Assembly (NCBI GenBank): GCA_030706745.1
Contig: JAUZNX010000015.1
Span: forward strand, 1-64,000
Direction of reading: 5' to 3'
Origin: Bacteroidota bacterium
GTDB lineage: Bacteria > Bacteroidota > Ignavibacteria > Palsa-1295
Length of the DNA: 64,000 bases
Shown: positions 15,719 to 60,462 of the stretch, one piece after another
How positions within the stretch are numbered: position 1 is the first letter of the stretch
Layout of the letters: each line of letters begins with the position of its first letter
Position numbers and translations under genes: made by a program
The notes under the pieces: model-generated
What the model saw: only the letters and a program-made list of their open reading frames with translations
Told to the model about the DNA's origin: nothing
Database searches by the model: none

Positions 15719-17152
15719 ATGAAGACTTTCATTTTTCTTCTTATTTCTGGTGCGGCTCTTTTGATGGCCAGGCCGGCCGCATCGCAGCAACCTCTGACTC
15801 AAAAAGTCCACGTGATCTCGATCGCGACTGAAGTCGATCTTGGGATGGTCTCGTATGTTCAGCGGGCGGTTGAAGAGGCGGAGAAGGCCCATGCCGTCAT
15901 CCTGCTGCATGTGAATACATTCGGCGGACGATTAGACGCCGCGACGAAGATTCGGGATCTGATTTTGAATGCGAAGGTCCCGATGACCGTTGCCTTCGTC
16001 GATAAGCGGGCGATTTCAGCGGGCGCACTGATCACGCTGGCTGCGCAGAAGATCGTAATGTCGAGTGGCTCGACGATGGGAGCCGCTACTCCGATCTATG
16101 AGACAGGCGAGAAGGCATCCGAGAAGGTCAACTCCTACATGCGAGCTGAGATGCGCTCGACTGCCGAGCGCAACCATCGCGATCCAAGAATTGCCGAGAC
16201 AATGGTGGACGAATCGATTGGACTCGACTCATCATACAAGATCAGTGTCCCGCAAGGGAAGCTGTTAACGCTGACGGAGGAAGACGCGATTAAAGTCGGC
16301 TACGCCGATGCGAAGGCCGAGACGGTACCGGCTGCGCTTCAAGCGGTTGGAATCAGTGCAACGGATATTGTAAATTCCGAAGAAGGATTTGGTGACAAGC
16401 TGATTCGGTTCCTGACTTCGGGCCTTGTCAGTTCGCTGCTCATCATGATCGGCATGGCCGGCGTGTTTTATACGATTAAGACCGGCCACTTCGGCGCAAT
16501 TACGATCGCCGCTATTGCTGCCTTCGTGCTGTTCTTTGGCGGGCAATATATCACCTCGGTTGCGCCGCTGATCGCGATCGTGCTATTCCTTGCCGGCTTG
16601 ACGTTATTGTTGATCGAGATCTCGCCAGTACCAACATTTGGACTTGCCGGTGTTCTCGGTATTGCCGGAGTAGCGTTTGGGCTATTTCTGGCACTGGCCG
16701 GCGATCTCAGGACTCTAACACCCGATCGAATGACGCAAACCTTTGTCACACTCGCGATAGCACTCACGGGAGTAATTGTGCTTGGATACGTCATCATCAA
16801 ATATGCGCCGAAATCGTTATGGCTTAGGAAATTCCGCAATGAGGCGACGACGGCCGATACAGGATTTTATGCTGCCGAAGAGGCACTGATCATTGGCAAG
16901 AGCGGCATCGCACAAACAATGTTGCGTCCGGCCGGGATCGTGCTGTTGGGTGATCGGAAGATCGATGCTGTGACCGGTGGCGAATTCCTTCCACCCGGCA
17001 CGGCAGTCACGGTTATGCGGATGAGTGGCAACCGTGCAGTCGTCCAAGCCGCTACTGACGCAGTGACTACGCGAGCGACTTCTGAAAGTCACATCAGCGA
17101 GGAGCGCGAGCGCGGCGACAGTTTCGGTGGCCGCATCGCGCGGACGACTTAG
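15719..17152 (+). CDS. NfeD-family membrane serine protease (ClpP-class)
   Basis: A 477-residue membrane protein of the long NfeD (1510-N type) family, thought to cut or process membrane proteins of the stomatin/SPFH group. After a signal peptide (cleavage near AASQ) comes a ClpP-like domain: VNTFGG (65-70) and the nucleophile S100 in DKRAISAGALI; K136 is a likely partner of the Ser-Lys dyad. Residues about 230-380 hold four or five membrane helices, and the last 60 residues form the soluble NfeD OB-fold. ATG at 15719 is chosen because it directly precedes the signal peptide; an in-frame ATG at 15572 would bury it. No stomatin partner gene lies beside it here. The stop overlaps the stop of the convergent next gene. 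Confidence 0.9.
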   Translation: MKTFIFLLISGAALLMARPAASQQPLTQKVHVISIATEVDLGMVSYVQRAVEEAEKAHAVILLHVNTFGGRLDAATKIRDLILNAKVPMTVAFVDKRAISAGALITLAAQKIVMSSGSTMGAATPIYETGEKASEKVNSYMRAEMRSTAERNHRDPRIAETMVDESIGLDSSYKISVPQGKLLTLTEEDAIKVGYADAKAETVPAALQAVGISATDIVNSEEGFGDKLIRFLTSGLVSSLLIMIGMAGVFYTIKTGHFGAITIAAIAAFVLFFGGQYITSVAPLIAIVLFLAGLTLLLIEISPVPTFGLAGVLGIAGVAFGLFLALAGDLRTLTPDRMTQTFVTLAIALTGVIVLGYVIIKYAPKSLWLRKFRNEATTADTGFYAAEEALIIGKSGIAQTMLRPAGIVLLGDRKIDAVTGGEFLPPGTAVTVMRMSGNRAVVQAATDAVTTRATSESHISEERERGDSFGGRIARTT

Positions 17153-19263
17153 CGCTCGATCACGATGCGGCCAATGGCTTGCACGTCCCCATCAGCGATG
17201 ACGACATAGCTGCCATTTGGCAGATTGTTCATTGAAAGCGGAAGATCGGTATGACCCGTTTCGATCGAGCCATCATAGATGACTGCCCGCAGGGCGCCGG
17301 CCTCGTCATACAATCGAAGCGTGACGTGCCCTCGCGTCGTAAGGTCAAGTGATATGGTGGCGTTCGATGCCATTGGATTTGGATAGATGCAAAGTTCCCC
17401 GAGCGTAATTGCCGCATGCATTGGGACGCTCAACGGGATGTTCGAAAGTGGCACAGCCCAGAGTCCGTTTTGAACTGTCCCGATATAGGCGGTTGAACTG
17501 TCGATCCCGAAGGCCTGCATCGGACCGGTCGTTGACTCTGGGATAAGCTGCGTCAGATTCTGATCCAGAACGAAGAGGCCGTTATCAGCGGGAGAAGGAT
17601 TGTACGCTAACGTCAGAAATATTTTCGATCCGATGGTATGAGCAGATGAAGCCATCAGATTGATGCTTGACCAGTTAGCGCCACCATCTATCGATGTCAG
17701 AATTTCATCGCCGAAACACAAGCACATTCTTGATTCGGTAACAGCGGAAGCTACAAGCCATCCACCGGTCAAGGGAAGAATGCCAGCATCACTCCACGTT
17801 TTTCCAGCGTCGGGAGAACGCCAGAGGCGCCAAATAGTATCTGCTTGCAGGGTTAATGCGAGAACTGTATCGCGAAATGTTATCACTGCCTCAACTGCAA
17901 ACGGAACCTGTTCGGGTATTGGTGACAAGGCCTGCCAGGAACTGCCATTATCCAATGACTCAAACGCATCACCCGTAGCAGATCCTAAAATCAATGTATC
18001 TCCAATCGCAGTCAGGGTTGGAGTCAATGCGGGCGATGCAAGCGCTTCCCAGGAGGTACCGTTCCACCGCCAGATGACGGAGCCATCTCCAACAGCGTAG
18101 AGGTTACCGAGCAAATGATAAAAGGTGCTGGCACCTTCAATCGTAGCGGGGGTCAGCCATGTCAATCCGCGATCCGAACTTTGAAAGATGGCGCTGCCGG
18201 GTCCGAAGTCGGTGCTAGCGAATAGAGTACCTTCGGATGAGGCAACATTCGCGATGAACGAGGCATGAATACCTTGCGGCACATACTGCCAGGCTTTACC
18301 ATCGGAAGATTGGAACAATCCCCCTTCCTCACTTGAAAGAAACGACCCACTCACGTAGGTCAGTCCATAGGCTCCGCCGCCACCTGTCGAGTAGTAATCT
18401 GGATAGCCACCCTGACCGTCAACCGATGTCCATGATCGAGCACCATCGGTAGAGAGGAAGATGCCATTGGATGTACCGGCCACCATCGTGAGACCATTCA
18501 CCACAAGTTGACCGATATCGTCTATGTTAGAATCGAGACCATAGTTGATCGGAGTAACCCAAGACTGACCGAAGTTGGTCGAAAGATCGACACGTCCTGT
18601 GCTTCCAGCGAATAAGTTCGTGCCAAACGTTGCGAGTGACATCGGCCCTTGCGTAGAAGAATAACCCGTCTGGCCCCAACCTCCTCCAGCAAATGGAAGG
18701 CTCCAAACAAAGGGGCCTCCATTAATCACGAATAGATATCCTCCGCATGGCACTGCGGCACTGATAGAATATGCGTCAGAACCCGGTGGAGCTTTCGCAA
18801 AGCGATTCCAATGATCTCCCAAATCCGATGATCGAAAAACACAATCGTTCGTATCGTCATTGGTTAGCACCACGAGGATCGCTTGCCCCTTCGGGATCAG
18901 GGCGATATAGGATGATTGCTTGGAATCCGGCAAGACATTTTGCCAGGTCGACCCGCTGTCAAGCGAGCGATACACACCTGAATCAGCACCTGCAAAAAGC
19001 ACATCCCCTTGAAGCGGTACGAAGATGCTTGCAAGTGCCGTGATCGTTTTCCCAGCAAGGCCAGCCCGTTTCCAAGTCTGAAAATGATCGGTCGTACGCC
19101 ATGCGCCATCTTCGGTACCGGCATAAATGTGGCTGCCCTTGGAACCTGCAAGCGTATCATAGCAATAGGGTCCTGCGCCTGGGGGGCCAGGAATTTGATG
19201 CCATTGGCCGAAGGCGCCAAAAGGAAGCAGAATTAGGAACGCAACGCTGTAAAATATTTTCAT
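17149..19263 (-). CDS. Secreted Asp-box (Ycf48-like) repeat protein with T9SS sorting domain
   Basis: A 704-residue exported protein. It has a signal peptide (MKIFYSVAFLILLPFGAFG) and then many repeats of the sialidase/Ycf48 Asp-box type, such as AGADSGVYRSLDSGSTW, which build beta-propellers; there are enough for two. The last 85 residues are a type A T9SS sorting domain: IYPNPMASNATISLDL, VTLRLYDEAG, NGSYVVIA and the end IVIER. ATG at 19263 is preferred over a TTG at 19278. Such proteins are usually exposed on the cell surface or released. The ligand is unknown. Convergent with, and overlapping by four bases, the NfeD-type gene. It lies 35 bases downstream of tilS. Confidence 0.88.
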   Translation of the reverse strand: MKIFYSVAFLILLPFGAFGQWHQIPGPPGAGPYCYDTLAGSKGSHIYAGTEDGAWRTTDHFQTWKRAGLAGKTITALASIFVPLQGDVLFAGADSGVYRSLDSGSTWQNVLPDSKQSSYIALIPKGQAILVVLTNDDTNDCVFRSSDLGDHWNRFAKAPPGSDAYSISAAVPCGGYLFVINGGPFVWSLPFAGGGWGQTGYSSTQGPMSLATFGTNLFAGSTGRVDLSTNFGQSWVTPINYGLDSNIDDIGQLVVNGLTMVAGTSNGIFLSTDGARSWTSVDGQGGYPDYYSTGGGGAYGLTYVSGSFLSSEEGGLFQSSDGKAWQYVPQGIHASFIANVASSEGTLFASTDFGPGSAIFQSSDRGLTWLTPATIEGASTFYHLLGNLYAVGDGSVIWRWNGTSWEALASPALTPTLTAIGDTLILGSATGDAFESLDNGSSWQALSPIPEQVPFAVEAVITFRDTVLALTLQADTIWRLWRSPDAGKTWSDAGILPLTGGWLVASAVTESRMCLCFGDEILTSIDGGANWSSINLMASSAHTIGSKIFLTLAYNPSPADNGLFVLDQNLTQLIPESTTGPMQAFGIDSSTAYIGTVQNGLWAVPLSNIPLSVPMHAAITLGELCIYPNPMASNATISLDLTTRGHVTLRLYDEAGALRAVIYDGSIETGHTDLPLSMNNLPNGSYVVIADGDVQAIGRIVIER

Positions 19264-19298
19264 AGACTTGATTGACAAATAGCCAACGACGAATCAGG

Positions 19299-41400: not shown

Positions 41401-42058
41401 TTTCACGCAGTTCGTTTCTGGCAGGTATAATGTACCCCAATCTTCGGGAGGTTATTATGTTGTTGATGGCGATTCCGCCCTTGCGATGTTCGGAAGTGGA
41501 ACCGACGATTCGCATCGTGCGAATTCGTGGGTACTTTCAAACAATGGCCACTCCGTAGCCTTACATACGCTGGAGATGCAGTTTCAGCCGCCAATACCAA
41601 TTCAAACTTCGTATAAGTCAATTCCTGGAGCAACCTATTCCGATAACACGATCGTTGCTTGGGGCCACGTAGATTCCAATGGTACCTTGTTGGATGGAAT
41701 TGGCGCTCGGGTCGTTAAGGCCTCTGCTCCGACGAAGGGAACCTACCTCGTCGTGCTGACGCTCAAGGATTGGCAAGGCCATGACGATACCCTTAAGGAC
41801 GGCTCCATTACGGTTACTCTCGAGGATCTCGATACCACGGGGATGTCTCAATTCATACCTCCTACGGATAACTCGACTCTTAAGGATGGAGTAACACCGA
41901 GCGCATACGGGACCTGTGATATTGCCAACGCGACACCGCTCGACAAATTCAATCAGCCTAACCGATTCTTGGTCCATATTCGTCTTGGTTCGTTGGCTGG
42001 CTGTGCCTACGACAACCACTCTTTCTATTTTAAGGTATGCGGACGCCCAACACATTAA
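38474..42058 (+). CDS. Giant IGGG-repeat fibre-like exported protein
   Basis: A 1194-residue protein with a signal peptide (MKRLCVLLLVSLFFSHTAHA). The N-terminal domain (about 25-160) is the tail-fibre-like ISYQGTITNSDG / WSDEF / GVFNIGLG / VPFALNVA type common in Bacteroidota. Two blocks of YadA-head-like repeats follow, at about 232-500 and 689-970, with some 34 copies of a motif like (I/V)xGGxxN, roughly every 15 residues. Between them lies a 190-residue spacer. The final 220 residues look globular. I see neither a YadA membrane anchor nor a T9SS sorting domain, so its attachment is unclear. It probably forms a trimeric coil-like fibre. Possible regulator: the divergent XRE protein. Confidence 0.85.
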   Translation: MKRLCVLLLVSLFFSHTAHAQSSGGPIISYQGTITNSDGLLGDGSFHIAVSLWTEESSDHPIWSDEFVTQVTHGVFNIGLGSGKPLPKPSDMNKPLWISVSINGEVSAAFTRLAAVPFALNVADSSITASKLATDYVGSISVNGKKVTGNGTTLNIAAGNGLQAQFDPSSSTILLAADGGTLGKGAKPQSVVGVGSTSTPDSCTTNSDGGHGTNTVSGGCGNTADPPQGYATVGGGQGNSAHAKYSIVAGGSSNTIDTFANNAAIGGGESNMLWNSISFIGAGKRNTVGQHEASDGEDESSAIVAGDSNFVEEGWGFIGGGSRDSIIVGSYYSSILGGNANAIGKGPIGLSAYNSPYSSISGGSQNSVLGQLNAIVGGTQNYISFFSVSSIIGGGESNLLQGEHSGIISGQNNRIGSGNDGSDNGNNFSVIAGGDSNRITGNSSAIGGGDSNSVSKAYSVIAGGARNIIANEYSAIIGGKQNEVDGRYSTILGGRSLKLSDFSVGFNASDSVTDLTNLLSGPFPNIAYFGDINIWVGNVDGTARELRFYEPNNSLTYSGTNYSSFKAGIQSGNISYTLPRVVASEGQFLKADSVSGSNVFLSWDAVTGTGGAVGNFWSLTGNSGTHDTVNYLGTRDSMAFEIHVHNDASTATGGNKRVMRYEEGATSPNIVADSSFNTLGAGLSGASVLSGGEYGLTNSVLTHFSVVAGGEGNKINASQLGWNSIGGGYEIRIDGDANTIAGGFINAIFDTSDIIPQDNFVGGGVGNVIESARASTIGGGESNHIQFEVNQATIAGGTSNTIKTGSDSSTIGGGASNTIANCTNSTIAGGKQNQILGGSRTYCPPNWNSSVIGGGLGNVIDSTQWGTIGGGHANTIGYQSDASAIGGGESNTANDIYTVIAGGQQNTIERGAYWSSIAGGYLNYVYWPSGNAAIGGGQSNSIHSPSGTISGGFNNVIDTAAEGASIAGGEGLIASGFTQFVSGRYNVPQSSGGYYVVDGDSALAMFGSGTDDSHRANSWVLSNNGHSVALHTLEMQFQPPIPIQTSYKSIPGATYSDNTIVAWGHVDSNGTLLDGIGARVVKASAPTKGTYLVVLTLKDWQGHDDTLKDGSITVTLEDLDTTGMSQFIPPTDNSTLKDGVTPSAYGTCDIANATPLDKFNQPNRFLVHIRLGSLAGCAYDNHSFYFKVCGRPTH

Positions 42059-43863
42059 GCGGATGCAAAACGGGAGGACGTACACCTCCTCCCGTTCTTT
42101 TGTTCATACTTATTCTCCTGCTCGGAATGACGAGCTTTGATAGCGCCCTGTTTGGACAGTGGAAGAGAGTGCTTTGTTCGGGCGAGCGCTATGCATACGC
42201 ATACACTTATTTTCTCGACCTGTCAGGTCCTCCTCGCATTGGCTTCACAGGTGCTGATGGAAGAATACTAAAGACCACTGACGGAGGAGAGACATGGAAA
42301 GTTGTAACATCGCCAATTGGTATTGCTTACGATTTCACCTTCAAGGACAGCATGACTGGTTGGTGCGCCTTTGAGGGGCAGTCTTCCGGATGTTACAAGA
42401 CAAGCGACGGAGGCGAGTCCTGGTTTGACACACCCCTCAATGGGGTTGATCCCGGGAGTATTTATTACGATAGTACATCGGACGGACTTTTTTATGGCGG
42501 AGGGGCAACCATTGGGGGTGCTAGCGGCTATTCATTGGCAGTTTCATGGGACAAAGGATTGACATGGGTGCCGGCTCAAAGCGGAAGCGGTTCTAATCAC
42601 GGATTTGCATTCGTCAATGGCGATACTGGAATTCAAGCCGGCGGTTATTGTGACCGTCCTGATAATATCCCTTGGCTGCGGACAACCGATGGTGGACACA
42701 GTTGGCAGACTCTTTCTCTTGATAGCGGTAGCCTACAACCGCTGGCCATCCCGGGCACCAGCATTTTTTTCGCTTTGACGTTCTATGGTACTGTCCTTCG
42801 CTCCACTGATGCGGGTATGACTTGGGATAGTCTAAGCGCGTTGCCCTATGTTGCGCCCGACCCTCTTCCCTATTGCTACATGTCCTCAAGTGGCTGCATC
42901 AAGGGTGATCTTAACGATCTGTATGGCACCACCGGAGAAGGATGCTATCATTCGACAGATAAGGGACAGACCTGGCAGTACCAGTGTGGACAGTCTTCTA
43001 CTAACAAATTGGTATCGGGTTCCAGATTTTATGCGAAAGCCCATATTGTTTTCATGAAATCAGTGGACGTTATCACGGATAGTGCTATTCTTTGGAAGTT
43101 GAATCTGGATTCTATGCCCTACTTCGATTCAAAAATCACCTGCACATTTGCGGACAGCTCCAAGTTGAAGACGGTTGCTGCCGGTCATTCCGCAACGGTA
43201 TACTATTTTGTTCAAGGTGCTTCTCTAATCGGCATTGATACGGTGCATCTTTCGATTCGCTATGATGATGCGTTGAATGTCCAGAGTCTTCAACTTCCTC
43301 CTGGCTCGAGCGTCTTGCGCTCCAGCACGAACAACAACATACTCGACCTCTGGTTAACGAGCGACGCACGGCTGTTGCCAAGTCAATTGCTTGCAATTAC
43401 ATTCGGGACGGCACTCGAATCCTCTTCGGCAAAAGTCTATCTCGATTCCGCGCATCTCTATGGCAAGCGGCTGAACTGCGATTGTGCGGCGCTTTCGGTG
43501 TCCGGCCCGGATTCGGTGGAGATCGACTTCACCGGCTGCGGCAATACGACACTGCTACGCACCATGTCGGGCCAGTCGCCGTTCGAGATTGTGAGTGTGC
43601 AACCTAATCCAGCACAGTCAGAAATCACCGTCCGCGTGGCGGGTGCGAGTGAGATGGCGGGTGATCTTGCGGCCCCCGGCACTCTGAGTGTCGAGATGTA
43701 CGATGTATTGGGCCGCGCTGTCAACCCGGGACAGAACATGCGCGCGACATCCGCACGCGATAGCTTCACGCTTGATGTCGCAGGGCTTCCGCCGGGATTG
43801 TATTATCTTCGCATGCTCTCGAACGGCTACGCACAAACCCGCAGCATCTCAATCGAGCGGTAA
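42037..43863 (+). CDS. Secreted Asp-box repeat protein with T9SS sorting domain
   Basis: A 608-residue secreted protein. From ATG 42037 it has a basic n-region and a hydrophobic core (VLLFILILLLGMTSF) ending near LFGQ. Several Ycf48/Asp-box repeats follow (residues about 60-330, such as LKTTDGGETW and YKTSDGGESW). A cohesin/anchor-like beta domain is at about 370-480. The last 85 residues are a type A T9SS sorting domain (VQPNPAQSEITVRV, VEMYDVLGRAV, PGLYYLRM, end SISIER). The start overlaps the previous gene by 22 bases and a terminator-like hairpin lies inside the first codons, so a downstream start (TTG 42100 or ATG 42127) remains possible. Confidence 0.82.
   Translation: MRTPNTLSGCKTGGRTPPPVLLFILILLLGMTSFDSALFGQWKRVLCSGERYAYAYTYFLDLSGPPRIGFTGADGRILKTTDGGETWKVVTSPIGIAYDFTFKDSMTGWCAFEGQSSGCYKTSDGGESWFDTPLNGVDPGSIYYDSTSDGLFYGGGATIGGASGYSLAVSWDKGLTWVPAQSGSGSNHGFAFVNGDTGIQAGGYCDRPDNIPWLRTTDGGHSWQTLSLDSGSLQPLAIPGTSIFFALTFYGTVLRSTDAGMTWDSLSALPYVAPDPLPYCYMSSSGCIKGDLNDLYGTTGEGCYHSTDKGQTWQYQCGQSSTNKLVSGSRFYAKAHIVFMKSVDVITDSAILWKLNLDSMPYFDSKITCTFADSSKLKTVAAGHSATVYYFVQGASLIGIDTVHLSIRYDDALNVQSLQLPPGSSVLRSSTNNNILDLWLTSDARLLPSQLLAITFGTALESSSAKVYLDSAHLYGKRLNCDCAALSVSGPDSVEIDFTGCGNTTLLRTMSGQSPFEIVSVQPNPAQSEITVRVAGASEMAGDLAAPGTLSVEMYDVLGRAVNPGQNMRATSARDSFTLDVAGLPPGLYYLRMLSNGYAQTRSISIER
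42069..42101 (+). terminator. Terminator-like hairpin behind the fibre gene
   Basis: AACGGGAGG (42069-42077) pairs with CCTCCCGTT (42088-42096) around a 10-base loop, followed by CTTTT. It lies 11 bases past the fibre protein stop and would end its transcript, but it also sits within the signal-peptide codons of the next gene. Confidence 0.75.
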
Positions 43864-53760: not shown

Positions 53761-54792
53761 TTACTTCAAAATGAAGGACTTCAACATTCGGAAGGAGTAG
53801 CTTTGCTGGTTGGTGGTGATATTGGTGTAATGCCCTTCATCCCGAACGACCCAACCAAGTGCGGGCGCATACCAGAGCGTTCGGACTTCCTGCCAATTAT
53901 CGTTCGTGACGCTCTGCGTCATGGTGTAACGGATAAGTATGCAGTGCACGGCTACGCCTGCGACCGCTAATTCTTCCGTCTGGATGTATTGATACTTCTC
54001 GGTCAGAGTCCCTTGAATCAGCCCCTGCGCGTTGGAGTAGCTCGAATCGAAAACAGTGTAAGTGTTCGTTGCCTGCGATCCGATTGGATAGGTCTTCCAG
54101 AGGCTCTTTCGGGCAAATCCATCCCAAAGCCCCGATTCCCTGTTGTCTTCATAGACGCTCCAATCGCCGTTGATCTCGTATTTTGCATATCTTGTCAAAC
54201 TTCCGGCAGCATAACTCGTGACGTCCGACTTGCCGAATTGATTGAGGTGCTGGGCAACGATTCGCTCGGTGTCTGGCACTGACGAGCCGCTATCGGCAAA
54301 GATGAATATGCTTCCGAGGCCTGGCTGCGTTATGCCTGGAGGAGGAGGTGGTGGTGTGGCGATGCCCTTCCCATGAAGAGTAACAATAACGCTCACCGGT
54401 CTGCCATCTGAGGTCTTTGCATCCGTGCGAATGCTGTCGTAGCCATAGTAATCGTTAGCATCTGACGGCATGAAGTGAAACCGAACACTCCGCGATGACC
54501 CGCCCGGTATTGAGAACGTGAGCGAATCGGGAGTCGTAAAGACCTCCGGTGCAATACTCTGCCCAGTAATCGCGAGAGCGACCGAGCCCGTATCGCGATA
54601 GACGATCGTCGTGTCCATCGAACTCCCCACCTGGACTGTACCAAAGTCGATCATCTTGGGGACGCTCAATCCTGCCGGGTGCGTGCTACCGTTCGTCGAG
54701 CCCCCCGGTGTCGTTTCCGTGGAAGACGAACATCCCGCTGCAAACAGGCAAGCGGTCAAAACGAGAGACGAGAGGCTCATATGGTTTTTCAT
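53761..54792 (-). CDS. Lipoprotein with choice-of-anchor-D-like domain
   Basis: A 343-residue lipoprotein (lipobox FAAGC, then SSST). The anchor-D-like domain (about 35-145, MIDFGTVQVGSSMDTT to VTLHGKG) is joined by a hexaproline linker to the C-terminal module found in the two following paralogues, here more divergent: GSIFIFAD, GKSDV and YEINGDWSVY. It ends MLKSFILK. ATG at 54792 overlaps the stop of the preceding propeller lipoprotein by four bases (ATGA), tying the two types of protein into one operon. Confidence 0.82.
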   Translation of the reverse strand: MKNHMSLSSLVLTACLFAAGCSSSTETTPGGSTNGSTHPAGLSVPKMIDFGTVQVGSSMDTTIVYRDTGSVALAITGQSIAPEVFTTPDSLTFSIPGGSSRSVRFHFMPSDANDYYGYDSIRTDAKTSDGRPVSVIVTLHGKGIATPPPPPPGITQPGLGSIFIFADSGSSVPDTERIVAQHLNQFGKSDVTSYAAGSLTRYAKYEINGDWSVYEDNRESGLWDGFARKSLWKTYPIGSQATNTYTVFDSSYSNAQGLIQGTLTEKYQYIQTEELAVAGVAVHCILIRYTMTQSVTNDNWQEVRTLWYAPALGWVVRDEGHYTNITTNQQSYSFRMLKSFILK

Positions 54793-55736
54793 TTCAGTCC
54801 GATCCCGTAGATGTATGATTCGGTAAGTCCAGTGTCGATCTTCTCCCATGTCACGCCTGCGTCGGTGCTCCGTTTCACGCCACCTGCACGCGTAGCTTCA
54901 AAGATGAATGACCCGCTTACTGCGATCGAGGAAGCGACTCCACTAAACGCATCGCCAAGGTATTGCCATGTCTGGCCCGCATCGGTTGAGCGTATGGTAG
55001 CTCGGTCCGTTCCGGCGATCATCGTGTTGCCGTTCGACCAGATCGTTGAGATATATGGTGTGCCCGGATCCATGCTATGCCACGTAAGTCCCCGATCGTA
55101 CGACCGAAGCAGACCCAGGTTGTCCGTCCCAGCGATGAAATACGTGCCCTGGATTGCAACTCCACTAATACTCATGGTCGGCAAGCCATTATTGAATGGC
55201 TGCCAATTCGCACCTGAATCAGTCGAGAGAATGAACCCTTCATCGTCGGTCCCGGCAATCAGATCGCGTCCTTTGCTCGCGAAGCACCGGAAGCCCCCTA
55301 AAAAGAATCGTGTCCACGTTTGGCCATAGTCGGAAGAACGGCAAACACCATTTGACGGCGTGCCAGCGAAAAGGTAGGGACCATATATGTACACTGATTC
55401 CGTCCCCGTTCCAGGGAGGGCGCCGGTAGTCACCCAATTAAGTCCGTCATCGATCGAACGCAATACACCATAGTTGGTGGCTACATATAGATTGTTGCCA
55501 CCCACGGCAAAGCCCGCGGCGAATGTCTTTGCGGGGGTAGTCATGACGTGCCATGTTGCTCCCGAATCCGTCGAGCGAAACACTCCACTGTTCGTACCAG
55601 CAAAAACATATCGGAAGCCAGGTCCGCTTGTTGGGATCATTAGGTTCGTTTCCGCATCCGGAACGGTACAGACAGGCGAGCAGCCTTGAGAAAGGAGCGC
55701 CACGACAGTCACGGTAAGCAGAACTCGCATGAGCAT
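54789..55736 (-). CDS. Seven-repeat Asp-box propeller lipoprotein
   Basis: A 315-residue lipoprotein. The signal MLMRVLLTVTVVALLSQGC has a second cysteine four residues after the lipidated one (CSPVC). Seven repeats of about 40 residues follow, each with an Asp-box-like end: FRSTDSGATW, LRSIDDGLNW, CRSSDYGQTW, LSTDSGANW, LRSYDRGLTW, IRSTDAGQTW, KRSTDAGVTW. Seven blades fit a Ycf48-type beta-propeller. The end is YIYGIGLK. ATG at 55736 is used; 55730 is also possible. An upstream frame start at 55823 would add a non-signal sequence and overlap the neighbour. Confidence 0.85.
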   Translation of the reverse strand: MLMRVLLTVTVVALLSQGCSPVCTVPDAETNLMIPTSGPGFRYVFAGTNSGVFRSTDSGATWHVMTTPAKTFAAGFAVGGNNLYVATNYGVLRSIDDGLNWVTTGALPGTGTESVYIYGPYLFAGTPSNGVCRSSDYGQTWTRFFLGGFRCFASKGRDLIAGTDDEGFILSTDSGANWQPFNNGLPTMSISGVAIQGTYFIAGTDNLGLLRSYDRGLTWHSMDPGTPYISTIWSNGNTMIAGTDRATIRSTDAGQTWQYLGDAFSGVASSIAVSGSFIFEATRAGGVKRSTDAGVTWEKIDTGLTESYIYGIGLK

Positions 55737-55762
55737 GAGCAAAGAATGAAAGAGTTGAATTA

Positions 55763-56773
55763 CTACTGGGCACCAAGCGAATAGACACCTTGGATGCCGG
55801 GAAAAACATTCCCATGTGCCCACGAGACTCCATCATCCGTGGAGCGATACACCACACTATCCATCCCGCCGGCAAAGATCGAGTTACCCCTCACCAAAAG
55901 AGCGCGAACGGAAGATGGCACTCCATGCACTGACGCCCAACTTGCACCAAGGTCGGTCGAGCGAAACAGCCCATTCGCATTCGTCCCAGCGAAGAGGGTC
56001 GAGCCATGCTGTTGCAGCGTAAGCACGAGTTGAGATTGTATCCCTGCATTCGAGGGTCGCCACGAGCCACCCTTGTCACTAGACCGATATATGCCGTCTG
56101 GCGTGCCCGCATATAGTATGGTGTCGATCGCCAGGATTTGGAATGCGCCCTGGCTATTGAGACCATTGTTCGCAAGCGCCCAGTTGAGTCCCGAATCGTT
56201 CGAACGAAAGCACGACCCGCCTGTCTGCATCGCGACAAAGAGCGAACTCCCGATCGAGGCAAACGACGAGAGATTGGAGTTGTATGGCCCACCGAGGCTA
56301 AGGCCAGACTGCCACACCTGCCAGTTTGCACCGTTGTCGGAGGAGCGCCACACGCCCAAACCGCCCGTGCCGGCAAGGACAAATGGGCCAAACATGCCGA
56401 GGCCATAAACATACTCAGTCTGGATACCTGGGCAAGTCGATTGCCACGTCATACCGCTATCAGTGGAGACGAACGTGCCTAAGCCGGTGCTGCCACCATA
56501 AAGATACTTGCCGTTGGTAACAAAGCACATCATGGCCCTGCCCGTCGGTTGCGTGGAGACGAGCGACCAATTCGAACCCTGGTCGCTCGAACGATACACG
56601 CCTTTGTCCGTACCAGCGAACAGATACGATACACCCGTAAACGCGCCTCCGCCATTACCATTGCCTGAGCCACCGCTATTCGGATCCGACGAGCAATTGC
56701 AACCGGAAATCGAAGACGCGGCGAATAGCAGGGTACCGGCAAGAAGATTTGCGAGCGACATTTTTTTTCTCAT
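55763..56773 (-). CDS. Seven-repeat Asp-box propeller lipoprotein
   Basis: A 336-residue paralogue of its neighbours. The lipobox is SISGC, with another cysteine two residues on (CNC), then a glycine/asparagine-rich linker. The seven repeats end YRSSDQGSNW, VSTDSGMTW, WRSSDNGANW, FRSNDSGLNW, YRSSDKGGSW, FRSTDLGASW, YRSTDDGVSW. The C-terminus is GVYSLGAQ. The start at ATG 56773 lies 12 bases behind the preceding gene. It is presumed to be a seven-bladed propeller anchored to a membrane by lipid. Confidence 0.85.
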   Translation of the reverse strand: MRKKMSLANLLAGTLLFAASSISGCNCSSDPNSGGSGNGNGGGAFTGVSYLFAGTDKGVYRSSDQGSNWSLVSTQPTGRAMMCFVTNGKYLYGGSTGLGTFVSTDSGMTWQSTCPGIQTEYVYGLGMFGPFVLAGTGGLGVWRSSDNGANWQVWQSGLSLGGPYNSNLSSFASIGSSLFVAMQTGGSCFRSNDSGLNWALANNGLNSQGAFQILAIDTILYAGTPDGIYRSSDKGGSWRPSNAGIQSQLVLTLQQHGSTLFAGTNANGLFRSTDLGASWASVHGVPSSVRALLVRGNSIFAGGMDSVVYRSTDDGVSWAHGNVFPGIQGVYSLGAQ

Positions 56774-56785
56774 GACGGTCTATTA

Positions 56786-57796
56786 TTACTTCATCCCCAA
56801 TCCATACACGACATTATAGGTCAGACCTGTATCGAGTGTACTCCACGTCTTCCCTTGGTCCGACGTCATACTCACTCCATAGCCGAAGGTACCGACAAAA
56901 ATGTATGGGCGGCTGATGGCGAGTACACTCTGCGTATATGAGTTATTGAACCCCAACGGCGTCCAGAAGTATCCGAAATCCGTGGATCGAAGGAGACCGC
57001 GATCGCTGGCCGCAAACAGGGTGTCACCCATTGTGGCAAGCCCGTAAAAGTACGGGTAGGATGTCAGTGGCATTTGCTGCCAGGTACTTCCACGATTGCT
57101 GGATCGATAGATCCCATACTGGTATGTGCCAGCATACATATAGATACTATCGAACACAACGCCGTTAACTTCCCGAGTCTGAATCGTGCTTGCTACCTCG
57201 GTCCACGTTCGGCCAGTATCCCGTGAATAGATAACTCCGAGGCCCGGATTACTGGCCAGGATGTCTCGTCCATTGGTGGCGAAGTTGCCGTACCCAGGGT
57301 CGTATACCCGTGTCCAGCTATCGCCGTTATTCGTCGAACGCCAGATGCCGTAATCGGTCGCCGCTATGACGTAGCCACCAACCGCCGTCACGCCAAGCAC
57401 TTCATTTCCACTAAGTAGAGCTGTATTGGACCACGTCACACCATCATCGGCCGACCGGAGCAGCCCTTGCACCGTCGGCGCGAAGACATAGGTGTCATTG
57501 GCCGCGAAGCAAGTTAATGTCGGTGGGGGCGTGCCAGCAACCGATTGCCAAGTCTTTCCGGAATCGGTCGAGCGGAAGATCGCCCCCTGTCTTCCAGTCC
57601 CATCCGTCGCAGCAGCAAATAGAAACTTGAATCCTCCGCGCGAGCCACCGGAGTTGTCTTGATGCCCAACTGGAACGCCGCTTCCAGCGCCGGCGACATC
57701 ACACGTAGGTGCGCAGCCACTCCCAGCGCAAAGCAGCAGCGTTAGTAATAGCACTGCGGCCCTGTTGGGTTTTCTCAAAAGATTGACTACTCTCAC
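56786..57796 (-). CDS. Seven-repeat Asp-box propeller lipoprotein
   Basis: A 336-residue paralogue. The lipobox is AGSGC with a second cysteine at +4 (CAPTC). The seven repeats end FRSTDSGKTW, LRSADDGVTW, WRSTNNGDSW, YSRDTGRTW, YRSSNRGSTW, LRSTDFGYFW, MTSDQGKTW. The C-terminus is VVYGLGMK. The start is GTG at 57796; its first bases overlap the stop of a leftover paralogue fragment lying just upstream (GTGA). The same architecture as the two downstream genes suggests repeated tandem duplication. Confidence 0.85.
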   Translation of the reverse strand: MRVVNLLRKPNRAAVLLLTLLLCAGSGCAPTCDVAGAGSGVPVGHQDNSGGSRGGFKFLFAAATDGTGRQGAIFRSTDSGKTWQSVAGTPPPTLTCFAANDTYVFAPTVQGLLRSADDGVTWSNTALLSGNEVLGVTAVGGYVIAATDYGIWRSTNNGDSWTRVYDPGYGNFATNGRDILASNPGLGVIYSRDTGRTWTEVASTIQTREVNGVVFDSIYMYAGTYQYGIYRSSNRGSTWQQMPLTSYPYFYGLATMGDTLFAASDRGLLRSTDFGYFWTPLGFNNSYTQSVLAISRPYIFVGTFGYGVSMTSDQGKTWSTLDTGLTYNVVYGLGMK

Positions 57797-57935
57797 AAGA
57801 TCGATTGGTTACTTGAGAAAGACGGCATGGACTGAGCGGCCCGCGAGGTCGGCCCGTTGTCCGTTGAGCGGAGAACACCTCCGTATGTTGAGGCAAACAA
57901 GGAGTCTCCGATTATTGCGGAACCAGGCATACCGT
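57793..57935 (-). pseudogene. Remnant of a lost propeller paralogue
   Basis: Directly behind the stop of the fusion lipoprotein, in another frame, the sequence still encodes GDSLFASTYGGVLRSTDNG, one complete repeat of the family, followed by unrelated codons and a TGA at 57793-57795. The fragment has no signal peptide and only one of seven repeats. Its TGA overlaps the GTG start of the next gene. The simplest reading is a deletion between tandem copies that left the tail of one gene. Confidence 0.75.
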
Positions 57936-59198
57936 TCATTGCAGTCCGATGGCAGTTACTGTATTTGTCGAAATCGCTCCTGTAAGCGTAGTCCACGTGG
58001 CTCCATTGTCGCTGGACCTGCAGATGCCACCGTTTCCACCGACAATCAATTGCGAGCCATACGGTGCGATGCACATATACACAGAAAAATGTGTGGGATT
58101 CGACATTGTTATCCAACTGTCACCATTATCGGTGGAGTGGTAAAGGTAGGAACCTCCCGCATAAAGATCGGAGCCATTTGCCGCAAGCGCTCCGACATCA
58201 GGAGAACTCTTGGAGAGTCCATTGTCGATCATTGTCCAACTCGCTCCATTGTCCGGGGACCGATAAACATCGCTGACACTTGCCGCGAAGAGAGTCGTCC
58301 CAACGACAGCAAGGGATCGGACCCGTTGCGCCGGGTAGTTTGTCCCGGCCCAGGTTTCACCATTATCTTGCGAGCAAAGCAGTCCTTCCGCACCAGTCCC
58401 GACGAAGATCGCCGACCCAACTTGCACGAAATTTCCAATGAACGTAGCCGACAAACCATCCACGTGCGTCCACGTGGTCCCGAGATCGCTAGAACGAAAC
58501 GCACCTGCATAGGCAGTACCGGCATAGAGGATCTTACCGATTGCGGCCAGTCCATAAATCATGTGATCCGTGAGCCCAGAATTCACCGGCTTCCATGTTA
58601 GACCACCATCCTTCGATCGAAGAACACCTTCATTGTGTGTGCCGGCGAAGACCTCGCCCCCAAGAGTCGCGATTCCCAAAACGATAAATGCTGTATCGAG
58701 CACGCCCATCTGCAACCAGGTTGAGCCGCTATCTCCCGAGCGAAACACGGCGCCGGTGATCGTGCCGGCATATAGATAGTGTTTTGGAGGCAATCCCTTG
58801 CCGTGCAAAATGATCTTCGCCCCGAACTGACCAACTACCGAAATGCTATCGGAGCCAGCATAATCGATCGTATCAGATGGCTCGAAGTGAAAAAGCAGGC
58901 CGCGCGCGGAATCCGCTGGAATGGTCGTCAGCCCATCGACTGTAAAGCATGAAGGCGAAACGGTCTGGCTTCGAATGGTGAGCGGTGCATGCGTAGTGTT
59001 CTTGAATGTGATCAGCGTATCCTTCGTCGTTCCTTCCGGTATCGATCCGAAATCGATGTTCAATGGCGTGCTGAGTGCACCCGTCAAATTCTGCCCAGCA
59101 CCACCCTGATTCGGATCCGGCGATGAGGAACAACCGATGCAGAGCACCAGCGCGACAAATAGAATAGGGGCAAGGTGAATGAGTTTCGGTGTCATCAT
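57936..59198 (-). CDS. Fusion lipoprotein: choice-of-anchor-D-like domain plus seven-repeat propeller
   Basis: A 420-residue lipoprotein (lipobox CIGC, then SSSP). Residues about 38-135 are an anchor-D-like domain (LNIDFGSIPEGTTKDT to IILHGKG), as in the three distal genes of the array. Residues about 140-420 are seven Asp-box repeats ending FRSGDSGSTW, LRSKDGGLTW, FRSSDLGTTW, LCSQDNGETW, YRSPDNGASW, YHSTDNGDSW, CRSSDNGATW, as in the three middle genes. It ends TVTAIGLQ. It is the first gene of the operon, 145 bases behind pheS. It joins both module types found separately downstream. Confidence 0.87.
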   Translation of the reverse strand: MMTPKLIHLAPILFVALVLCIGCSSSPDPNQGGAGQNLTGALSTPLNIDFGSIPEGTTKDTLITFKNTTHAPLTIRSQTVSPSCFTVDGLTTIPADSARGLLFHFEPSDTIDYAGSDSISVVGQFGAKIILHGKGLPPKHYLYAGTITGAVFRSGDSGSTWLQMGVLDTAFIVLGIATLGGEVFAGTHNEGVLRSKDGGLTWKPVNSGLTDHMIYGLAAIGKILYAGTAYAGAFRSSDLGTTWTHVDGLSATFIGNFVQVGSAIFVGTGAEGLLCSQDNGETWAGTNYPAQRVRSLAVVGTTLFAASVSDVYRSPDNGASWTMIDNGLSKSSPDVGALAANGSDLYAGGSYLYHSTDNGDSWITMSNPTHFSVYMCIAPYGSQLIVGGNGGICRSSDNGATWTTLTGAISTNTVTAIGLQ

Positions 59199-59343: not shown

Positions 59344-60390
59344 TTAGAACTGCTCGAGGAAACGGAGGTCATTTTCGAAGAAATCCCGAATATCGCTGAC
59401 CCCGTATCGCATCATCGCCGTCCGGTCAATACCAATACCAAACGCATATCCAGTGTAGATTTCCGGGTCGATGTTGCAGGCTTTGAGCACGTTCGGATGT
59501 ACCATGCCGGCCCCTAATATTTCGAGCCAGCCAGAATTCTTGCATACGCGGCAGCCCTTGCCGCCACAAATGTAACAGCTCACATCGACTTCGGCGCTCG
59601 GCTCTGTGAACGGAAAAAAGCTCGGGCGTAGACGGATCTTCGCATCGGAGCCAAAGAATTGTCGCGCGAATGAAAGCAGCACTCCTTTGAGATCGGCCAT
59701 GCTAACGCCCGGTCCGACCACGAGACCTTCCATCATAAAGAACGCCACTCCACTCCGCGCACTGATGGCTTCATTGCGATACACCCGACCTGGCATGATG
59801 GCACGGATCGGCGGCTTCTGCCGCTCCATCAATCGGATCTGCACGGGAGATGTGTGCGTGCGCAATAACAGTGGTGCTCCATCCGCACCTGCGGAAGACT
59901 TGACAAAGAATGTATCCTGCATATCTCGCGCCGGATGATCGGGCGCAAAATTCAACTTGCCAAAGTTATGCTCGTCGTCCTCAACTTCGGGGCCGTATTC
60001 AACCGCAAAACCCATTCGCTCGAAGATCGAGACCATTTCGTTCAGCGTCTTCATCAGCGGATGCTCGTGTCCGGCCGCCGAGACCGAGACCGCCCGCGCA
60101 GGCATCGTGAGGTCGATCCCACTAAGTGCGCCGGGGCCAGCACCACCAAGATACAAGGCTTCCTTTTCTTTGAATCGCTCCTCGATCTGCTGCCGGAGCG
60201 AATTAAGCTCCTTGCCGGCAATCGGCTTCTCTTCTTTGGATACTGAGCGGAGATCGTCGAACATGGCGGCGATCGTCCCCTTTCGCGTCAAATGGGCGAG
60301 CTTGTATGATTCGAGTTGATCCGCCGCGCCGATTGCATCCAAATCGGCCAGCAACTTTTCTCGGACGGTTATTATATCGTTTAATGTCAC
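59344..60390 (-). CDS. pheS: Phenylalanine-tRNA ligase alpha subunit
   Basis: The catalytic alpha chain, 348 residues from GTG 60390. It has the N-terminal coiled coil (about 5-80) and the class II core: motif 2 region PGRVYRNEAISARSGVAFFMMEGLVV and motif 3 GYAFGIGIDRTAMMRYG. The segment CYICGGKGCRVCKNSGW carries extra cysteines, as in many bacterial PheS. GTG at 60390 gives normal length; an upstream in-frame start (60459) would run through the promoter. A TATCTTTG element ends five bases before the GTG. Confidence 0.96.
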   Translation of the reverse strand: MTLNDIITVREKLLADLDAIGAADQLESYKLAHLTRKGTIAAMFDDLRSVSKEEKPIAGKELNSLRQQIEERFKEKEALYLGGAGPGALSGIDLTMPARAVSVSAAGHEHPLMKTLNEMVSIFERMGFAVEYGPEVEDDEHNFGKLNFAPDHPARDMQDTFFVKSSAGADGAPLLLRTHTSPVQIRLMERQKPPIRAIMPGRVYRNEAISARSGVAFFMMEGLVVGPGVSMADLKGVLLSFARQFFGSDAKIRLRPSFFPFTEPSAEVDVSCYICGGKGCRVCKNSGWLEILGAGMVHPNVLKACNIDPEIYTGYAFGIGIDRTAMMRYGVSDIRDFFENDLRFLEQF

Positions 60391-60395
60391 GGGTG

Positions 60396-60403
60396 CAAAG
60401 ATA
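60396..60403 (-). promoter_or_regulatory. -7 element TATCTTTG directly before pheS
   Basis: On the minus strand TATCTTTG is followed by CACCC and the GTG start. A TTG (60424-60422) lies 18 bases upstream as a -33 candidate. The distance of five bases to the start codon is the same as at pheT and implies a message with no or almost no leader. Confidence 0.6.
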
Positions 60404-60425
60404 CGGTGCTGAGGTGACAAGCAAG

Positions 60426-60433
60426 TATATTTG
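60426..60433 (+). promoter_or_regulatory. Candidate -7 element TATATTTG for the divergent membrane protein gene
   Basis: It matches TAnnTTTG on the plus strand, 29 bases before the ATG at 60463, back to back with the pheS promoter. I do not see a good -33. Confidence 0.45.
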
Positions 60434-60462
60434 TATGGTCTGCACCGAACTAACACCACAGC

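Follow-up and report, generated by a model that had tools for sequence, protein, structure and literature searches.

If four neighbouring genes encode proteins with the same number of repeats, what fold do these repeats build, and does the constant count reflect selection for varied binding surfaces? We analysed this for four lipoproteins, P1 to P4, that are encoded next to pheS in an uncultured Kapaibacteria-type bacterium (Table 1); the complete stretch of 64,000 nucleotides that was analysed is referred to as the window. The genes are closely packed, with intergenic gaps of 12 and 26 nt, and the start of A5 overlaps the stop of P1 by 4 nt (ATGA). An operon is likely here. For P1, the ATG is most likely the true start rather than an overlong GTG at 55823. 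Scans for promoters and terminators returned sites that were no more numerous than in shuffles, and neither tRNA nor Rfam RNA genes were found in the window. A foreign origin judged by base composition was considered and rejected, as a GC content of 53–56% versus 53% for the window gave no signal.

Table 1. Genes and gene remnant of the lipoprotein slot beside pheS, in window coordinates
Feature	Product	Position	Strand	Characteristics
pheS		59344..60459	minus	Pfam PF01409, E 5.9e-95; upstream border of the lipoprotein slot; synteny anchor
P4	lipoprotein, 420 aa	57936..59198	minus	lipobox LCIGC; N-terminal ASH/HYDIN-type Ig-like domain and seven Asp-box repeats
P4–P3 gap		57797..57935	minus	one-blade propeller relic in another frame, GMPGSAIIGDSLFASTYGGVLRSTDNG...
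P3	lipoprotein, 336 aa, GTG start	56786..57796	minus	seven Asp-box repeats; closest relative P1
P2	lipoprotein, 336 aa	55763..56773	minus	seven Asp-box repeats
P1	lipoprotein, 315 aa, ATG 55736	54789..55736	minus	seven Asp-box repeats; AF2-modelled seven-bladed propeller
A5	lipoprotein, 343 aa	53761..54792	minus	ASH domain and C-terminal domain
A6	lipoprotein, 349 aa	52604..53653	minus	ASH domain
A7	lipoprotein, 467 aa	51198..52601	minus	two ASH domains

Asp boxes follow the standard consensus S-x-D-x-G-x-T-W. With the consensus written as [ST]-x-[DN]-x-G-x-x-W, each of the four proteins contained exactly seven boxes, while 2,000 shuffles gave a mean of 0.05–0.09 and a maximum of 3. The boxes are spaced 37–47 residues apart, and every one of the proteins ends 26 residues past the start of its last box, a distance also found in the propeller lipoproteins of locus L134 and of genome G001 described below. 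The count of seven made in the initial annotation therefore held. However, the literal pattern given with it, (S/T)-D-x-G-x-(T/S/N)-W, catches all seven boxes in none of the four proteins (by eye, it matches about 5, 6, 2 and 3 boxes in P1, P2, P3 and P4), because the residue preceding D is free and substitutions by N or F occur. Pfam BNR scored above its cut-off in P1 to P4, and in the P1 model the boxes come after the C strands, at the turn between blade strands 3 and 4 that is the criterion of the class. P2, P3 and P4 are 34–39% identical to P1, with 39% for P3.

P1 was modelled with AF2 from an alignment of P1 to P4, the G001 protein and distant propellers, the latter including those returned by searches of phage contigs, which found nothing closer. 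A run on P1 without an alignment gave a pLDDT of 33 and was replaced; an alignment led by P4 was discarded, since the first blade of P1 to P3 fell on the ASH domain. The final model (pLDDT 89.9, pTM 0.87) shows seven strands each of types A, B and C. Its closest structural counterparts were 7bid, a designed propeller with seven blades (Z 28.6), and the Asp-box protein 3b7f, aligned over 277 residues at about 20% identity (Z 27.0); one propeller of GH74 enzymes followed slightly behind (Z 24.8). Foldseek placed 3b7f on top and also returned DAIP and Ycf48, while profile searches of PDB sequences found GH74 enzymes (best), 3b7f, sortilin, DAIP and Ycf48. By our reading of the secondary structure, the C-terminal strand of the model (residues 293–296) fills the inner-strand position of blade 1, and the constant C-terminus of the proteins would follow from this closure of the ring. 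With Z scores of 24–29 to seven-bladed propellers for P1, and P2 to P4 assigned by alignment, the predictions agree with the seven-bladed fold proposed at the outset, which P2 to P4 probably share.

Seven blades are, however, no special property of P1 to P4 but a constraint that the fold imposes. In searches and retrieved stretches of this genome, at least 75 distinct open frames matched the propeller family (counted by hand from the listing), and 87 frames in the retrieved stretches, a few of them double-counted, carried three or more strict Asp boxes. Many propeller frames end in a type IX sorting-type tail. Motif walking yielded 6–7 units in most single-propeller proteins and 13–14 in long ones; thus, a unit of seven is normal for the fold in this lineage. 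Numbers of propeller matches were similar across the genus and family; elsewhere in the class, they lay between 0 and 67. The T9SS-tailed Asp-box propellers of this genome and class have the same repeat as P1 to P4, and some lie in tandem clusters. In contrast to P1 to P4, with their predicted lipid anchor and single propeller, they are secreted proteins with a C-terminal sorting domain and often two propellers per chain. We found no literature on propellers or type IX secretion in Kapabacteria or Kapaibacter.

Several further propeller genes were observed. Two within the window (17149–19278 and 42037–43863) encode Asp-box propeller proteins with type IX sorting-domain tails, the first tail scoring below the curated cut-off. 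Elsewhere in the genome, away from the pheS locus, contig C10 encodes a fifth seven-repeat propeller lipoprotein (L134:4164–5135). The related genome G009 carries on its contig 18 five propeller genes or gene fragments of the type IX kind in tandem (L116:3918–13023), four of which have very similar C-terminal tails.

How did the array come to lie beside pheS? Judged by PheS, the closest relatives that have a name are Candidatus Kapaibacterium and other metagenome assemblies of Bacteroidota/Ignavibacteria. Six other genomes of the genus encode, downstream of pheS, one or two lipoproteins of the ASH type that resemble A6 or A7; A6 has a 68% identical counterpart in the nearest relative, and A7 has counterparts in most genomes of the genus. 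A propeller lipoprotein was present at the locus in two of the seven genus genomes, with one copy in G001, the nearest relative, and four in the present genome. Copy number thus changes among relatives (4, 1 and 0), a comparison that the initial annotation had proposed. Six more genomes of the family were compared: four of them encode one or two short lipoproteins in the interval from pheS to pheT, the other two lack any, and no propeller lipoprotein was found there in any of the six. Relatives of the A5–A7 lipoproteins occupy this interval in several genomes of the family. Since slot lipoproteins are widespread and propellers are restricted to two genomes, the slot beside pheS is old, and the propellers in it appear recent.

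P1 and P3 align clearly best in blade register 0 and, at the sequence level, are whole-gene duplicates. P2, too, is in register with P1, whereas the register of P4 is ambiguous. Searched with phmmer, P2 and P4 both have a type IX-type propeller as their best non-self match, in the case of P2 one from the same genome, and both genes were probably recruited from further propellers. We do not claim a single clade for P1 to P4, as a tree built from 51 propeller units left most relationships unresolved. The N-terminal domain of P4 matched Pfam PF22544 and NCBIfam choice_anch_D, both under cut-off. Its nearest match in the genome is the ASH domain of A5 (44–46% identity, E 5e-18); that the two nearest domains share one locus indicates that P4 and A5 shared the domain locally. 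The C-terminal parts of A5 and A6, searched alone, gave no Pfam match. The relic lies directly past the P4 stop and reached local scores of 80–83 against family members and of 69 against the lipoprotein set, for which 300 shuffles gave at most 51. It is probably a decayed fifth copy.

All four proteins start with a signal peptide and a lipobox (LSQGC, ISGC, GSGC and CIGC), from which they are predicted to be lipidated; the side of the membrane they occupy is likewise a matter of prediction. The initial annotation had suggested display on the envelope. In Bacteroidia, two acidic residues within six positions past the lipid cysteine have been used to infer surface exposure (PMC5080379, PMC12578637). 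The mature N-termini CSPVCTV, CNCSSDP, CAPTCDV and CSSSPDP each contain one acidic residue or none within their first six positions, so that this signal of Bacteroidota is absent from all four. The signal may differ in the class studied here, but lipoprotein export signals of the known kind give no indication of surface display.

If the paralogues had been selected for different ligands, variable sites might cluster on one face of the propeller. We classed the residues of P1 by the AF2 model and compared identities among P1 to P4 with those among random sets of four, drawn from 45 other propeller units of related genomes. In P1 to P4, identity at the bottom was 0.59 in the Asp box and 0.46 in the AB loops, versus 0.19 in the BC and 0.19–0.20 in the DA loops of the top. 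The random foursomes gave 0.50 and 0.27 at the bottom and 0.20 and 0.17 at the top. The top loops do vary more, as had been expected, but they do so in random propeller sets as well, and the contrast does not discriminate. Per-position blade entropy of P1 to P4 followed the generic profile, without added variability and with structural positions somewhat more conserved. A variable top face and a conserved bottom are features of Asp-box propellers in general, and in the known Asp-box structures the top is the only face with a functional use (Quistgaard and Thirup, PMC2716378).

These results bear on the proposal that a constant count with divergent faces points to selection for a binding repertoire, here of surface-displayed paralogues that diversified for different top-face ligands. 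The four divergent copies, the top loops that are far less conserved than the bottom and the differing copy number among relatives would all fit such a repertoire, and so would BtuG2. This Bacteroides surface lipoprotein works with BtuB in B12 uptake (PMC10404256) and, as predicted for P1 to P4, is a lipid-anchored propeller (Z 23.7 to the P1 model); its identity, however, is 8%, and no Asp-box relation is shown. Top-loop identity equal to that of unrelated sets, the generic profile and the lack of acidic N-termini speak against the proposal. A repertoire is possible, with no support past what any such propellers show, and we regard it as unlikely. Neutral turnover provides another explanation, by which propellers, as a fold that forms easily, are often duplicated and the array would be a passing side effect, each copy having little selected function. 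Repeated amplification of propellers has been described (PMC9218822), and the decayed blade inside the array, the varying copy number and the very many paralogues agree with it. On the other hand, none of the four frames is broken, and each keeps a complete lipobox, seven full repeats and the constant C-terminus. That these features persist despite deep divergence argues for long purifying selection on the fold, and makes mostly neutral turnover rather improbable.

Would the proteins instead be enzymes? Sialidase-, GH74- or F510_1955-like activity could be suspected, since GH74 enzymes are the best sequence matches in the PDB and the F510_1955 glycosylhydrolase (NF045728) is the best NCBIfam match. 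Its scores of 90–107 bits stay below the cut-off of 175, though. 3b7f (reut_b4987), an uncharacterised protein annotated as putative glycosyl hydrolase, is a single seven-bladed Asp-box propeller like P1 to P4; we know of no tandem lipoprotein array or ASH fusion for it. Residues invariant across P1 to P4 belong almost all to the repeats, and outside the boxes no D, E, H, Y or K is common to all four. This speaks against a shared catalytic site, while each protein may still have a separate activity. GH74 enzymes are tandem propellers and GH33 enzymes six-bladed (PMC2716378), whereas P1 to P4 comprise one predicted seven-bladed unit each. Carbohydrate-active enzymes are thus very improbable. 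A role as envelope-assembly factors, akin to that of Ycf48 or of BamI, a component of the BAM complex in Bacteroidota, was weighed as well. The photosystem II assembly factor Ycf48/HCF136, named in the initial annotation, is itself a seven-bladed Asp-box propeller found by fold and by sequence and is reported to be a lipoprotein in a cyanobacterium (PMC8038367). BamI is a lipoprotein in which an Ig-like domain precedes the propeller, the order seen in P4. The structural likeness to Ycf48 stands, but membership in its family does not, as P1 to P4 scored far under the cut-off of NF010237 (at most 28.2 versus 326 bits) and below that of PF14870 (at most 22.5 versus 27 bits). The BamI profile gave at most 33.1 bits versus a cut-off of 370, and BamI has six blades compared with seven in the P1 model. 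No match in the genome reached the cut-off of either BamI or F510_1955. Moreover, the genes are missing from most close relatives, which is unexpected for a core factor, and an assembly role is distinctly improbable.

The explanation that we favour, with moderate confidence, is that P1 to P4 are lipid-anchored, seven-bladed Asp-box propellers that built up recently in the pheS slot and act as non-enzymatic binding or scaffold modules. The proteins would be made as prelipoproteins and anchored by their lipid outside the cytoplasm. Each would fold into a ring of seven four-stranded blades, with the N-terminus supplying strands B to D of blade 1 and the C-terminal end contributing the inner A strand of the same blade. 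They would belong to the very large set of Asp-box propellers of this bacterial class, most of which are T9SS-tailed, with the lipid anchor in place of the tail. Within the older lipoprotein slot downstream of pheS, the cluster would have arisen recently by whole-gene duplication, at least for P1 and P3, and by probable recruitment of P2 and P4. P4 would have been fused to the neighbouring ASH domain, and at least one further copy would have decayed. Binding or scaffolding in the envelope is the most likely role that the sequences suggest. As a speculative and rather doubtful extension, the interval downstream of pheS may be a site of lipoprotein diversification throughout the genus, where ASH and propeller modules are duplicated, fused and lost, giving rise to species-specific envelope binding proteins with top faces for different ligands.

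The propeller family itself is already known; what sets this lineage apart is that such propellers have recently accumulated within a group of lipoprotein genes next to pheS. Here, a very common type of secreted propeller would have exchanged type IX secretion for lipid anchoring and gained further copies at a stable position in the chromosome. Should P1 to P4 recognise different ligands, the locus would show in compact form how envelope receptors diversify in an uncultured lineage; otherwise, it would record the ordinary turnover of a readily copied fold.
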